Source: Cyanobacteria bacterium CYA (GTDB lineage: Bacteria > Planctomycetota > Phycisphaerae > Phycisphaerales > UBA1924). Taken from it: a stretch of DNA of 64,000 nucleotides. Position 1 is the stretch's first letter. Each line of letters opens with the position of its first letter. Made by a program: the position numbers and the translations under genes. Below the pieces are notes generated by a model. The model was not told the origin of the DNA and ran no database searches. It saw only the letters and a list, made by a program, of their open reading frames with translations. Location of the stretch: positions 62,001 to 126,000 of the forward strand of contig RHKP01000009.1 in NCBI GenBank assembly GCA_008363215.1, read 5' to 3'. Positions 46,800 through 53,878 of this stretch are shown in pieces.

Positions 46800-47096
46800 T
46801 GGTGTATACTCGCTGCGGATGACGCGCACGCCCATTGCCAACTGATCGGTCCGTGCCGGCTGGAAATTCCAGTCGCATGACGCTTCGCTGGTTGTAGACC
46901 GGCGCAGCGGGTGATGTCTCGCGCGGACCCGACGTCGTCTACCGCACTTCCAGTCGAACTGAGTCCAAGCCGACGCTCGAATTCGATTTCGACTTCGACG
47001 CACGGTTGCCTTCAAACCCCTCCCCCAAGGTCGGGGCTCGTTGAAGCATCTGCCTTGGCGGCTCCGTACCAACGGGGACTTGTGGTCAGGTACCCC
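46800..47096 (+). promoter_or_regulatory. Structured leader region of the RNHCP gene
   Basis: 297 bp. A good -10 box TATACT (46805-46810) is followed by a tiny open frame MTRTPIAN (46819-46845), a palindrome CTGGAA-A-TTCCAG (46860-46872), and a second tiny frame MTLRWL. A larger fold-back follows, in which CTTCAA (47010-47015) pairs with TTGAAG (47041-47046) around a C-rich/G-rich inner stem. The layout suggests attenuation or another RNA-based control of the RNHCP gene; it is inference. Confidence 0.4.
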
Positions 47097-47465
47097 ATGT
47101 CCCAGAAATCGCGTCACGCGCCCGTGCACGGATGTTTCTCGTGTGTCCATTGTCGCTGCGAAGTGCCGCAGCAGTCGTTTGGCACGAGGCACCGCAATCA
47201 CTGCCCGATATGCCTGTGGTCACGGCACGTTGACGACGAGCCGGGCGACCGGCGCGCGCCGTGCCGCTCGGAGATGGAGCCGGTCGGTATCGAGGTGCGC
47301 CGCGACGGCGAGTGGGCGATCATCCATCGCTGCACGGGCTGCGGGCTGTTGCGAACCAATCGCATTGCGGGGGATGACAGCGAGCGTGCGTTATTGGCGC
47401 TGGCATTGCGGCCTTTGGCGCGGCCTGCGTTTCCGCTGGACCTGTTTGAGACGAATGGCCATTGA
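47097..47465 (+). CDS. RNHCP-domain protein
   Basis: A 122-aa protein defined by the RNHCPICLWSRHVDD motif followed by a conserved C and M/EPVGIEV segment. Four Cys pairs (CVHC, CPIC, C...C, CTGC) suggest two zinc-binding sites. The RNHCP family is widespread but uncharacterised. The ATG at 47097 starts just before CFSCVHC. Confidence 0.88.
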   Translation: MSQKSRHAPVHGCFSCVHCRCEVPQQSFGTRHRNHCPICLWSRHVDDEPGDRRAPCRSEMEPVGIEVRRDGEWAIIHRCTGCGLLRTNRIAGDDSERALLALALRPLARPAFPLDLFETNGH

Positions 47466-47596: not shown

Positions 47597-48520
47597 CTAC
47601 TCAACCAGAGGTTCTCCCGAGACGGCGGTCAGCGCCCGGTACAGGCCTGCGAGGCGTCTGGTGACCGGACCCTGAGTTCCGTCGCCGATGGGGCGGCCGT
47701 CAATCTTGCTCACCCAGGCCAGTTCACCCATGGTGCCGGTGGTAAAGCACTCACGGGCGCGGTAGACCTCGGTCATGGAGAGGTCGCGGACATCGTGGGC
47801 GATGCCGTGGGCACGACAGAGTTCGAGCACGGCCGCTCGGGTGAGTCCCTCCGGGCAGGCGACCAGGCGGCTGGTCAGCAGCACCGGCTCGCCCTCGCCT
47901 GAAACGATGAAGACGTGCGTGGCGTTGGTCTCGGCGAGGAAGCCTTGTTTGTCGAGCATGATGGCGTCGTCGGCCCCGGCGTTGTTGGCCTCGATCTTCG
48001 CCAGGATCGACTGGATGAGATTGCAGTGGTGAATCTTCGGATCAAGGCAGTCGGGCGGGAAGCGGCGGACGCTCGACGTGATCAGACTCAGCCCGTGCTC
48101 CCCCATCGCGGTGTCGTAAACCGGGGCCTTGTGCTCGGCCAGCACAATCAGCGTCGGGCCCGACTGGTTGAGACGCGGGTCCATGCCGCTGGTGATCTTG
48201 ACCCCGCGGGTGAGAGTGAGGCGGATGTGAACTCCGTCGCGCATCTGGTTGGCTTCGAGCGTGCGGCGAATCTGCTCGGTGATTTCCGCGTGGCTCGGAA
48301 TGTGCTGGAAGGCCAGCGCCAGGGCGCTGGAGCGCAGGCGGTCCAGGTGCTCGGTGAGTCTGAAGATGCGCCCGTTGTACAGGCGCAGGCCCTCCCACAC
48401 GGCGTCGCCACCCTGCACGGCCGAGTCGAACGGACTGATGCCCGCCTGGTCGCGGTGGATGAGCGTGCCGTTGATGTTGACGAAGAGGTTGCGGTTCTTT
48501 TCGTTGAAAGTCTGGAGCAT
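47597..48520 (-). CDS. Class IV PLP-dependent aminotransferase (branched-chain or D-amino acid type)
   Basis: A 307-aa fold-type IV aminotransferase. Landmarks: GGDAVWEGLRLYNG, DRLRSSALAL, RFPPDCLDPKIHHCN (region of the PLP lysine), DAIMLDKQGFLAETNATHVF and RARECFTTGTMGEL. It exchanges amino groups between branched-chain or D-amino acids and 2-oxo acids; the exact substrate is open. It is last in an operon with the sulfotransferase-like gene and the M19 dipeptidase (81-bp gap). GGGAG lies nine bases before the ATG. Confidence 0.9.
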   Translation of the reverse strand: MLQTFNEKNRNLFVNINGTLIHRDQAGISPFDSAVQGGDAVWEGLRLYNGRIFRLTEHLDRLRSSALALAFQHIPSHAEITEQIRRTLEANQMRDGVHIRLTLTRGVKITSGMDPRLNQSGPTLIVLAEHKAPVYDTAMGEHGLSLITSSVRRFPPDCLDPKIHHCNLIQSILAKIEANNAGADDAIMLDKQGFLAETNATHVFIVSGEGEPVLLTSRLVACPEGLTRAAVLELCRAHGIAHDVRDLSMTEVYRARECFTTGTMGELAWVSKIDGRPIGDGTQGPVTRRLAGLYRALTAVSGEPLVE

Positions 48521-48601
48521 GAAGTCTGGCTCCCAATTCGCTGGTCCTGACGAGCCCTGACCGTGAGGGAGAGGCCTGAACTCTCGCGACAGAACCCCCT
48601 C

Positions 48602-49360
48602 TTACGGTCGGGGATCGTTCGATGCTGCGGATGCGGTGATCTTGTGTTCGGCCATGAGGCAGTACAGACGCTGACACTCTTCAAGCACGCCGGCAAGTCG
48701 CTCAGGCACGCGCTCGTGCTTCGATTTGTAGGGGCCGAACCCGGTGCTCTTGTACACGCTGTCGTACCAATGCGGGCCCCAGAGCCCGTCGGTGTCGCGC
48801 GGGCCTGGTTTCCATGCAAGCATGGCCGGGTCGAAGGGCACGCCGACGCGCCGGCAGACGGCCGAGAGCATGGCCGGCGGGTTTTCGAGCACGTCGCGCG
48901 CGTCGATCACGGGCGGGGCCTGCCCGGTGCGGGCGCGGATCCACTCCCACAGTTCGACCTGCTGCGGAAGCCCGAGATCGGTCGGCGTCGGATTCGGAAT
49001 GACCTTGATGAAACTGGTAATCATCTCCACCGGATCGCGGATCAGGAACACGTTGCGCAGTTCCAGGATCCACTTGCGCCCGACTTCCGGCGTGAGATGG
49101 TGGTTCATGTGCTTCTGGTACCACACCGTCTTCCCGCGCGGGATCGGGCCGGTCAGCGAGCGCGTCACCAATTGCCAGTCCCACTCGTGGTTCTGGATGA
49201 TCTCCTCCCGGGCCGGGTGGTCGGCCCCGGTGAACTTGAGATAGTGGGCGTACAGCGGCTCATCGGATACAAAGCAGTCCGAGCGACTCTCCCACGAGCG
49301 CATCAGTGCGGTCGAGATATTCCGCGGCCCGGACCACATGCCGACCCGCACACCGCTCAT
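48602..49360 (-). CDS. Sulfotransferase-like P-loop protein
   Basis: A 252-aa protein with the PAPS-binding-like start GMWSGPRNISTALMRSWESR and the second motif NVFLIRDPVEMITSF. In plants the same domain is fused in front of a class IV aminotransferase domain; here the two are separate adjacent genes. This points to a shared pathway, possibly not sulfation of a standard acceptor. It overlaps the M19 gene by ATGA. Confidence 0.78.
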   Translation of the reverse strand: MSGVRVGMWSGPRNISTALMRSWESRSDCFVSDEPLYAHYLKFTGADHPAREEIIQNHEWDWQLVTRSLTGPIPRGKTVWYQKHMNHHLTPEVGRKWILELRNVFLIRDPVEMITSFIKVIPNPTPTDLGLPQQVELWEWIRARTGQAPPVIDARDVLENPPAMLSAVCRRVGVPFDPAMLAWKPGPRDTDGLWGPHWYDSVYKSTGFGPYKSKHERVPERLAGVLEECQRLYCLMAEHKITASAASNDPRP

Positions 49361-50415
49361 GACAGCCCCCAGAACCGCGACCAGTTGCCCCAGGCAAAGC
49401 CTTCGATTTCGGCGTCGCTCCAGCCGCGATTGCGGAGTTCCTCACCCAGTTTCTCGAAGTCGCGCGGGCGGTCAATCCCGCGGGGCAGGTCGTGCCCGGT
49501 GATGCCGCCGTCCATGTCCGAGCCCATGCCCACGCCGCGACGGTGGCCCATGATCTCGCAGACATGCTCCACGTGGTTGATCGCGTCGGCGACGCTCGGG
49601 CGGTCGTTGGGGTCTTTGCGATCAAGCCCCGTGCGGATGAAGTTGCGGACGAGGTTGAGCCCGATGACGCCGCCGCGACGCCCGATCTCGCGAATGGTCT
49701 CATCGGCCAGGTGGCGTTCGTTGTCCGGTTCGAGCAGGGCGCGGGAGTTGGAGTGGCTTGCGATGACGGCCGCATGGGTCATGGAGAGCAACTGCTCGGT
49801 CGATTTCTGCGAGAGGTGGGAGAGGTCATGCACGACGCCGAGTTCGTCGATGCGGGGGACCAGTTGTTTGCCCAGTTGGGTCAGACCGTGTCCGGGCGTG
49901 CCATTGCCGCCGGCGTAGCGGGAGTGGTGCCACCAGGCCATGCCGATGGCGACCACGCCGCCCTCGACCCAGGTGACCAGTTGCTCGGGCGCCTCGATGG
50001 GGTCGGCGCATTCCATGAGGACGCCGAGGAGGATGGGCCCGTGTTCGTCGGAGGAGACCGCGCCGGCGTTCTGCCCGCGCGGGCCCATGAGCCGGATCAG
50101 CCCGGCGTCGCGCCAGGCGTGGTAGAGTTTGAGTTGGCGCATGCCGGCCACCCAGGCTCCCCGCGCGTCGCCCTGGGCGTAGGCGAACGAGCCGGTTTCC
50201 GCATCGGGGGCCTTGGGATCCTGGATCGCCTCGGTGAAAATCGTGCCCAGGCAGGCACGCACCCCGCCGGCACGCAGAGAGGGCAGCGTGATGGTCGCCG
50301 GTTGATGCCGACCACGTGATTCCTCGGGCTCCACGTGCATGTCGCGCCCGCACTCGGCCAGGTACGCCAGGTCAAGGTGTGCATCAAACCACTGCATGGT
50401 CGATGGTAGACTCAT
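49357..50415 (-). CDS. Membrane dipeptidase-family (M19) hydrolase
   Basis: A 352-aa zinc hydrolase of the renal dipeptidase family. The start FDAHLDLAYLA carries the His-x-Asp metal pair; other ligands are in VVHDLSHLSQKS, ASHSNSRAL and GSDMDGG. It cleaves dipeptides, often with a D-residue or dehydro-residue. No signal peptide is visible, so it is cytoplasmic. First gene of the operon with the sulfotransferase-like and aminotransferase genes. Confidence 0.9.
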   Translation of the reverse strand: MSLPSTMQWFDAHLDLAYLAECGRDMHVEPEESRGRHQPATITLPSLRAGGVRACLGTIFTEAIQDPKAPDAETGSFAYAQGDARGAWVAGMRQLKLYHAWRDAGLIRLMGPRGQNAGAVSSDEHGPILLGVLMECADPIEAPEQLVTWVEGGVVAIGMAWWHHSRYAGGNGTPGHGLTQLGKQLVPRIDELGVVHDLSHLSQKSTEQLLSMTHAAVIASHSNSRALLEPDNERHLADETIREIGRRGGVIGLNLVRNFIRTGLDRKDPNDRPSVADAINHVEHVCEIMGHRRGVGMGSDMDGGITGHDLPRGIDRPRDFEKLGEELRNRGWSDAEIEGFAWGNWSRFWGLS

Positions 50416-51450: not shown

Positions 51451-52983
51451 TTACGGCTTGAGCGGCGGGCGCTTGCGCTCCCAACGCTGGCGCAGGCGGA
51501 CGCTGTCGAGCCCGATCAGGTAGCCCTTCGAGTTCGGGTTGATACCCACGCATTGAAGCGAGAGCGTGTGCTGGCCGGGGGCGATGGGCGCGTCGCCGAA
51601 ACGATGCTGGATCACTTCGATCTCCGGGCTGAACGCGTCGATGGGCTCGCCGATGGGCTGGGCGTCGAGCGCGACCTGGTAGATGCCGAAGTCATACGAA
51701 TGTGTGATCGGCACGACGAGGGCGCGCGGGCGATCGTCGGGGACGGTGAAGGTGACGGTCAGCGTCGATCCGACAGCCTCGGCGCGGAACAGGATCTGCC
51801 CCTGCCCGGTCCACGGACCGCCGGGCTGCAGTTGCGCCCGGCCCCCCACCATCGCGGCGCCATCAAGCAGCGTCGCACCTTCGATGATCGCGTCGATCGC
51901 CGGGAGTTTTCGCTCGGCCGCGCCCGGCAGCATCGTGAATCGCTTCGGCTGCCCGCGCTGGTACCAGAAGGCGACGCTGGCGAAGTCGTCCTCGCGTTCG
52001 ACGTGCCCTTCGACGTTGCCGGTGGTGGTTTCGTCGGCCGACATCCAGCCGTTGTGCTCAATCTCGAAGCGCAGACTCGTGCGGAAGCGCACGGGGTCGT
52101 CGATGTGCCAGCGGTACATAGTGCCGGAGTCGCCGAGTTCGGCCAGCCACCCGTCGCAGCGGGAGACGCCGAAGTAGGGGAACGTTTCCTGCTCCATGCC
52201 CCAGGCGTTGAGGAAGTAGTCTTCGGTACCGGTGCCCCACATGCTCGGCGTGGACTGGCCGTCGATGTAGAACTTGTCGTCGCCCTCACCAAACCACTGC
52301 GGGCTGCGCGAGCGGACGGACAGGACGGTGCCGATGTAGTGCCCGCCGCCCTCGGGGGCCTCGATGTCGGCGACGAGATAGTCATGCCCGAGTTGGGTGG
52401 GGAACTCCTGGCGGTACTGGGCGCAGAAGTAGGCCGTGTCCGGCGGCAGTGACACTTCCCGCGTGTAGTCGATCTGGTAGTACAGCGCGGTGAGCACGCG
52501 CTGGCTCTCATTGGTCAGCGTGATCTTCGCGGACTTGAAAAAGGGCATGGGCCAGAAGCAGTTGTACGAGTCGCCCCCCTGAACCTGCACGGGGATAGAG
52601 CGGACGGCCGCCCGTCGCCCGAAACCGGCGGCGAAGAAGTCGCCCAGCGGCGCTTCGACGGCGGGGCTTTCCGAGCCGTCCCAGTACATGCGGAGGACGA
52701 TTTCGTCAGGCGAGGCGCAGCCGTTCGCGGCGATCCAACTTGCGCCCGAGTCCGGGAAGGTGAACCAGATGTGACGGATGACACCGGGGCCTTCGAGTTC
52801 GGCGAGGGTATAGGTTTCGCCGGGCTGGACCCGGCGGTTGTCCCAGTTGGCCCAGGCCTCGGGGTGGTTGGAGCCGACGCGCGCCGAGACCGCGTCGCGG
52901 GGACGAGTCAGGGCGTCCAGAGACTGGGCGAGCGATGACGAGGCGAACGAAACCAGCACGAGCAACAACGTGACGAACCTCAT
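51451..52983 (-). CDS. Secreted GH172 (DUF2961) family glycoside hydrolase-like protein
   Basis: A 510-aa exported protein. A signal peptide (MRFVTLLLVLVSFASSS, cleaved after LA) is followed by the two jelly-roll domains of DUF2961: GPGVIRHIWFTFPDSG and DGSESPAVEAPLGDFF early, then STPSMWGTGTEDYFLNAWG, the family's most conserved block, which contains a likely catalytic Glu. GH172 members act on fructofuranosides and arabinofuranosides. A C-terminal beta-sandwich adds about 120 residues. Confidence 0.9.
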   Translation of the reverse strand: MRFVTLLLVLVSFASSSLAQSLDALTRPRDAVSARVGSNHPEAWANWDNRRVQPGETYTLAELEGPGVIRHIWFTFPDSGASWIAANGCASPDEIVLRMYWDGSESPAVEAPLGDFFAAGFGRRAAVRSIPVQVQGGDSYNCFWPMPFFKSAKITLTNESQRVLTALYYQIDYTREVSLPPDTAYFCAQYRQEFPTQLGHDYLVADIEAPEGGGHYIGTVLSVRSRSPQWFGEGDDKFYIDGQSTPSMWGTGTEDYFLNAWGMEQETFPYFGVSRCDGWLAELGDSGTMYRWHIDDPVRFRTSLRFEIEHNGWMSADETTTGNVEGHVEREDDFASVAFWYQRGQPKRFTMLPGAAERKLPAIDAIIEGATLLDGAAMVGGRAQLQPGGPWTGQGQILFRAEAVGSTLTVTFTVPDDRPRALVVPITHSYDFGIYQVALDAQPIGEPIDAFSPEIEVIQHRFGDAPIAPGQHTLSLQCVGINPNSKGYLIGLDSVRLRQRWERKRPPLKP

Positions 52984-53079
52984 GGGCAACCCTCCCGCGC
53001 GCAGCATCTTGAATTGCACCTCGAATCCCGAACCGGCCCGGCACGGACCGACTCGCGGCTCGCAGTTGAAACCGCGCGC

Positions 53080-53742
<663 letters not shown>

Positions 53743-53878
53743 GGCGTTCTCCGTGCAGAGAGTGTACACGGGGGCATGGGTTCGCGCGGCGGTACGCACA
53801 CTGCCAATACGCATTCAGCGAGCCGCGACGGCGAAGGTGCATCCGGCAACGCTCGGCACGCCGAACGCTCCAACCCCT

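Follow-up and report, generated by a model that had tools for sequence, protein, structure and literature searches.

What does a sulfotransferase-like protein share with a relative of the class IV aminotransferases, such that their genes are found side by side? This question is raised by three consecutive genes on the minus strand of a 64,000-nucleotide stretch of contig RHKP01000009.1 from Cyanobacteria bacterium CYA (Planctomycetota in the GTDB lineage), the whole of which is referred to below as the window:

49357-50415, minus strand: M19-type (renal-dipeptidase-like) gene, 352 amino acids (Peptidase_M19, 190 bits)
48602-49360, minus strand: sulfotransferase-like gene (ST), 252 amino acids (Pfam Sulfotransfer_5, PF19798, 156 bits)
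47597-48520, minus strand: class IV aminotransferase-like gene (AT), fold-type IV, 307 amino acids (Aminotran_4, 140 bits)

The comparative analysis reported here establishes that ST and AT form a conserved two-gene module, that the AT partner lacks the Schiff-base lysine of aminotransferases in every case examined, and that the dipeptidase is a local addition to this module.

The three-gene arrangement, described in an earlier note on this DNA, is real: the open reading frames (ORFs) lie at the coordinates listed above, and each of the three Pfam matches is well above its cut-off (for ST, 156 bits vs. a cut-off of 23.2). The dipeptidase and ST genes overlap by an ATGA at 49357-49360 and are translationally coupled, and the spacing from ST to AT is 81 bases. 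NCBIfam provided no match for ST or the dipeptidase. In a comparison with two other genomes of the genus, the ratio of nonsynonymous to synonymous substitution rates (dN/dS) is ~0.07-0.19 for all three genes (dN ~0.06-0.18, dS ~0.6-1.2; for M19, only 216 residues could be compared with the second genome due to a contig end), and this low dN relative to dS indicates that all of them are under purifying selection.

A conserved pair and its fusions

A survey of 294 Planctomycetota genomes from 210 genera yielded 45 ST matches, from which three weak ones (G021, G149, and G194; E-values 8.4e-4 to 5e-6) were excluded to give 42. At a threshold of E up to 1e-60, AT was detected in 41 of the 294 genomes, every one of them within the 42 ST carriers, and in the 42nd ST genome (G119) AT is interrupted by a contig end (locus L010). 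The corresponding Fisher p-value, uncorrected for shared ancestry, is ~1.6e-49. The 42 pairs are laid out in several ways, being adjacent within 250 bases in 29 cases, fused in 2, separated by 0.9-3.1 kb in 3, and unlinked or far apart in 8. The co-occurrence of both genes even without linkage points to a functional need rather than to mere neighbourhood. Among 299 genomes of Pseudomonadota, ST was found in 22 and lysine-less AT in 25, with all 22 ST carriers possessing AT (Fisher p ~2e-30); ST lies within 1.5 kb of AT in 16 of these 22 genomes and does not in the other 6.

A cross-phylum profile scan, limited to one genome per species, provided 80 named loci (the best 80 of 586) from Planctomycetota, Acidobacteriota, Verrucomicrobiota, Gemmatimonadota, Chloroflexota, Pseudomonadota, Actinomycetota, and others. 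AT is present in 74 of them, arranged as ST then AT (53 loci, of which 49 have the two genes no more than 250 bases apart), as AT then ST (19), or convergently (2), which bears out the conserved adjacency in bacteria on which the earlier note had relied. As for named loci without a local AT, two (L038 and L054) belong to genomes carrying elsewhere an AT with His at the lysine site discussed below (His type) and two (L104 and L107) to genomes carrying elsewhere an AT with Asn at this site (Asn type), and for L098 and L101 (contig ends, small bins) only lysine-type relatives of AT were found. A crude ORF clustering revealed no third conserved gene, any cluster besides ST, AT, and their antisense shadows being limited to at most 6 of the 80 loci. 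The phage records and viral contigs searched contained no relatives.

At two loci (L117 and L118), ST and AT share a single reading frame, and both Pfam domains are contained within one 539-residue stretch. Full-length stop-free fusions were detected in six genomes, all from one genus (g199), among 154 genomes of that planctomycete class. One further g199 genome (78% complete) gave no match, and the remaining full-length matches in the class are interrupted by an internal stop. ST comes first in the bacterial fusions, the same order as the earlier note gave for plants. Overall, the near-perfect co-occurrence in two phyla, the adjacency at most loci, and the fusion in six genomes strongly support the earlier suggestion that ST and AT serve one pathway.

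The plant proteins termed "branched-chain-amino-acid aminotransferase-like" contain ST followed by AT in one chain and, in the unverified plant fusion sequence used for this comparison in place of a database record, His at the lysine site. This sequence can be aligned over both domains. It agrees best with the clade comprising the bacterial fusions plus their relatives, its AT half matching this clade at ~59-64% (vs. 54% for the window AT) and its ST half at ~40-44% (vs. 35% for the window ST). The trees sampled 65 rows from 124 for ST and 64 from 113 for AT, in each case a fixed list supplemented with 32 randomly drawn rows. In these trees, both halves of the unverified sequence fall into the bacterial-fusion clade (10 ST and 9 AT rows including the plant one; Shimodaira-Hasegawa-like approximate likelihood ratio test support of 95 each), the plant ST branch being long, and the window pair is placed in a sister clade rather than in the nearest one. 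This placement agrees with the idea of the earlier note, which would have been refuted by an origin of the plant domains from different bacterial families, and we treat it as a lead and not as a test. Our search of open-access literature returned no paper on the plant fusion (At3g05190/At5g27410) or on a protein combining a branched-chain aminotransferase (BCAT)-like domain with a sulfotransferase, and no paper linking cysteinolic acid to both enzymes.

The dipeptidase, which the earlier note had placed in the operon as a possible source of the amino acid substrate, does not travel with the pair. ST is present in all three genomes of the window's genus, and in all three the dipeptidase precedes ST and AT follows it. 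Among the 80 named loci, only two have an M19 gene next to the pair, one in the window's genus and the other in Arenimonas (L049), where the M19 protein shares ~25% identity with that of the window and has a signal-peptide-like N-terminus. A role of the dipeptidase as part of the conserved module was thus rejected for all but the window's genus, and this gene is a local, genus-specific addition to the two-gene module. The Peptidase_M19 profile spans residues 6-349 of the window protein, which has no obvious signal peptide and whose PDB relatives include 3neh and 3lu2; its translation contains DAHLD, DLSH, ASHS, and GSDMDG, spotted by eye, which may represent the metal-ligand motifs of M19 enzymes.

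Two side observations concern the distribution of the pair. In small planctomycete genomes of one family (f60, loci L124-L133), a divergent ST (36-43% relative to the window protein) is unlinked from an AT that is still ~65% identical. In a bin assigned to Euryarchaeota archaeon UBA169 (L103), an Asn-type AT (32% identical) stands directly before ST; unless this bin is contaminated, the pair may therefore occur in Archaea too.

The missing Schiff-base lysine

An alignment of AT with E. coli IlvE and with a lysine-bearing BCAT-like protein from the same genome (L001) places a histidine at the position of the lysine that forms the Schiff base with pyridoxal 5'-phosphate (PLP):

48029-48031, minus strand: codon of AT His164, at the Schiff-base lysine position (E. 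coli IlvE K160; alignment with IlvE and L001)

The lysine is likewise replaced in every partner examined. Over 113 AT loci with 108 distinct partners, the site is occupied by His in 89, by Asn in 19, and by Lys in none (4 of 120 ATs were excluded from this count as partial matches). A subset of 56 chosen partners splits accordingly into a type of 46 members, all with His, and a type of 10 members, all with Asn; all 25 strong AT matches in Pseudomonadota have Asn, and five weaker relatives have Lys. IlvE, L001, and L002 (with its lysine displaced in the alignment) served as lysine-bearing controls. The AT tree joins the His and Asn types apart from the lysine-bearing outgroups with a support of only 84 and with long branches, which makes a single loss of the lysine likely rather than shown.

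The remaining part of the pocket is strongly conserved. The equivalents of IlvE R60, G220, T222, and T258, the residues that bind the phosphate of PLP, are kept in all 56 ATs, and the glutamate contacting the pyridine nitrogen (E194, IlvE numbering) is kept in 46 of 46 proteins of the His type. Furthermore, K108, K131, H98, and E129 are each found in at least 111 of 116 aligned ATs (including the three lysine-bearing controls), in both types, and none of them occurs in IlvE or L001. The mean column identity is 64% for AT and 53% for ST.

The AlphaFold2 (AF2) model of AT (predicted local distance difference test score, pLDDT, 91.3) has the fold-type IV fold, with Z-scores of 37.8-38.3 to 5e25 (38.3), 7z79 (37.8), and 9j32. 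The archaeal BCATs 5E25, 5CM0, and 5MQZ (37-39% identity) are of the same fold type and, together with IlvE, have the same phosphate-binding residues as AT, but, unlike AT, they keep the Schiff-base lysine, and IlvE is devoid of the K108/K131/H98/E129 set. The closest solved relative by sequence (40% identity; rmsd 1.7 over 297-298 residues) is the "aminotransferase-like protein" 7Z79 of Variovorax paradoxus, which has Asn where the window AT has His and shares with it the K108 and K131 positions. Structure 9J32 is the N174K mutant of the Variovorax protein, and the alignments show Asn (7Z79) and Lys (9J32) at the lysine site. The titles and site residues of these two entries indicate that the missing lysine has already been noticed by others in one member; no paper on the Variovorax protein or its N174K variant was found in open-access literature. 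The window AT fits a lysine-less 7Z79-type group, in which the lysine is replaced, the fold is kept, and K108 and K131 provide a signature.

Altogether, there is no support for taking the second gene of the pair for a usual aminotransferase: in addition to the lysine replacement in 108 of 108 distinct partners, the protein scores below the cut-offs of all 20 transaminase-type NCBIfam models that it matched (the best being 247 bits vs. 363 for PRK08320.1). As a functional label, "aminotransferase" is probably incorrect.

The sulfotransferase and its putative donor

The AF2 model of ST (pLDDT 93.8) retrieves sulfotransferases in the top rows of both Foldseek and VIA-align, with Z-scores of 14.7 to TPST-1 and 14.2 to the ST domains of CurM and olefin synthase. 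Two motifs stand out by their conservation in 68 ST rows:

49307-49336, minus strand: 5'-phosphosulfate-binding-type loop WSGPRNISTA, ST residues 9-18
49013-49039, minus strand: 3'-phosphate-binding-type motif RDPVEMITS, ST residues 108-116

Within the loop, W9, P12, R13, S16, and A18 are invariant and S10, G11, N14, and T17 are nearly so; within the second motif, which aligns with RHPYSVIES of the CurM domain, R108 and P110 are invariant and S116 nearly so. By analogy with the known motifs of sulfotransferases, both elements would bind 3'-phosphoadenosine 5'-phosphosulfate (PAPS). ST is predicted from its sequence and model to be a PAPS-dependent sulfotransferase, with PAPS as the likely donor.

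When searched against the PDB at E up to 0.01, the ST profile matched no sequences other than the domains of CurM (4GBM) and olefin synthase (4GOX), at 15-19% identity. In both of them sulfation prepares a leaving group for elimination, and both are polyketide synthase (PKS) domains acting on carrier-bound substrates, unlike the window ST. Further PF19798 sulfotransferases (28-36% identity) come from natural-product clusters on Dolichospermum and Streptomyces plasmids. These are located in clusters of PKS or nonribosomal peptide synthetase (NRPS) type and, unlike the window ST, have no AT partner annotated alongside. An adenylyl-sulfate kinase gene (cysC) was found near them in two stretches, accompanied in one Streptomyces by sulfate adenylyltransferase; neither gene is present in the second Streptomyces plasmid stretch. 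The occurrence of such distant PF19798 members beside adenylyl-sulfate kinase genes supports PAPS as the donor. The window's own genome encodes adenosine 5'-phosphosulfate (APS) kinase, for which strong matches were obtained in 42 of the 44 ST genomes examined (a weak one in G001, none in G283). A tblastn search with E. coli CysC, CysN, CysD, and CysQ for PAPS-supply genes near the pair, covering the 80 loci (1.2 Mb), produced a single partial CysN-like match (L086), several kilobases away.

A plasmid of a Dolichospermum metagenome-assembled genome, typed as conjugative (L138; CP070234.1, 114992-135747), combines a PF19798 sulfotransferase and adenylyl-sulfate kinase with a MATE exporter, a 2-oxoglutarate-dependent oxygenase, and amidohydrolases, a set resembling that for cylindrospermopsin. 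The Streptomyces plasmids (L139 and L140) harbor distant PF19798-type sulfotransferases within NRPS clusters, and the neighbours of the one in L140 are cysD, a GTP-binding protein gene, cysC, and a penicillin acylase gene.

What the pair may do

Our tentatively preferred reading, to which we give slightly less than an even chance, is that a PAPS sulfotransferase and a lysine-free, yet catalytic B6-pocket protein act in one pathway on a shared substrate. ST would use PAPS to sulfate a small soluble acceptor. Its partner would keep a pocket gripping the phosphate of vitamin B6 cofactors and, having no lysine to form the internal aldimine, would most likely not run a classical transaminase cycle. 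It may instead bind PLP or pyridoxamine 5'-phosphate (PMP) without a covalent link, its His (Asn in the second clade) and the family-specific charged residues acting on the molecule that ST sulfates or will sulfate. The strong conservation around the site suggests that catalysis persists without the lysine; the cofactor binding, the sharing of a substrate, and PAPS as the donor are inferred, and what the analysis shows directly are the modelled folds, the motifs, the missing lysine, the co-occurrence and adjacency, and the bacterial fusions. A bolder form, which we consider unlikely as a whole, envisions an ancient and widespread two-enzyme pathway, fused in plants, in which ST would create a sulfate leaving group and the lysine-free PLP/PMP protein would employ its His or Asn in elimination or amino transfer. 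Precedents are ColD and E1 as fold-type I PMP enzymes with His in place of Lys, and CurM for an elimination activated by sulfation.

Several observations weigh against the catalytic reading. To our knowledge, no activity has been assigned to any member of the lysine-less family. The pyridine-nitrogen Glu is replaced by Thr in 10 of 10 proteins of the Asn type, so that the two clades, which already differ at the lysine site, may not share the same chemistry. Three Pseudomonadota genomes (G527, G552, and G585) possess a lysine-less AT, whereas even a profile search detected no ST in them, which implies that AT is able to act without this partner. Finally, APS kinase is also present in most of 20 ST-free genomes (G129 and G144 lacking a match, G008 having a weak one), and such a near-universal PAPS supply has no discriminating power.

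The most probable alternative is one that we rate as possible although rather doubtful: AT may be a non-enzymatic partner that binds, scaffolds, or senses for ST, with its old pocket holding the acceptor, PAPS or its desulfated form (PAP), or an effector. The loss of the central lysine in all 108 distinct partners, the additional loss of Glu in the Asn clade, and the obligate partnership and fusion with ST are all consistent with such a role. On the other hand, strong conservation of the pocket residues along with a new, near-invariant charged set would hardly be expected of it, and neither would the three genomes with AT alone or the lack of linkage between both genes in some genomes. A less probable alternative retains a PLP enzyme that would catalyse a changed reaction, in which the Schiff-base lysine has been relocated and K108 or K131 holds PLP from a different wall of the pocket. 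The frequencies of K108 (111 of the 116 aligned ATs) and K131 (112), their absence from IlvE and L001, and the sharing of both positions with 7z79 are in its favor, but we know of no precedent for such a relocation among proteins of this fold. As another stand-in, a lysine at the second residue before the site was considered and rejected, since this position varies (82 Lys, 14 Arg, 11 Asn, 3 Thr, 1 Gln, and 1 His among the 116). The least probable, and already disfavoured, is a view in line with the earlier note, that AT is an ordinary class IV aminotransferase, fed by the dipeptidase, which makes or removes an amino group, with ST sulfating the product: despite its fold, its overall similarity to archaeal BCATs, and the retained Arg and Thr phosphate ligands, the lysine is absent in every partner examined, yet kept in IlvE, L001, L002, and lysine-type relatives from the same searches, the scores stay below every NCBIfam transaminase cut-off, and the dipeptidase is not conserved with the pair.

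In databases, this protein goes under the name of a (branched-chain) aminotransferase, yet its whole family lacks the residue that defines catalysis with PLP, and the rest of the pocket is strongly constrained. The strict partnership with ST in two phyla, together with the fusions, indicates where its chemistry should be sought, and the available structure of one member (7Z79) makes the question directly testable. If the bolder form of our reading is true, this family would constitute a lysine-free class of B6 enzymes within fold-type IV. Should the plant proteins be members too, as the unverified sequence suggests, a plant gene family is misnamed and a sulfated metabolite common to bacteria and plants is still to be found.

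Among the neighbouring genes in the window, an RNHCP-domain protein (PF12647, 123 bits) is encoded at 46911-47465 on the plus strand, just downstream of AT and opposite to it. On the minus strand, 51451-53019 encodes a DUF2961 protein (268 bits; a Pfam family with no assigned function) with a signal-peptide-like start, and 53080-53814 encodes a 3-oxoacid CoA-transferase subunit B (TIGR02428, 328 bits); this gene has the same orientation as the DUF2961 gene and terminates ~60 bases upstream of it.

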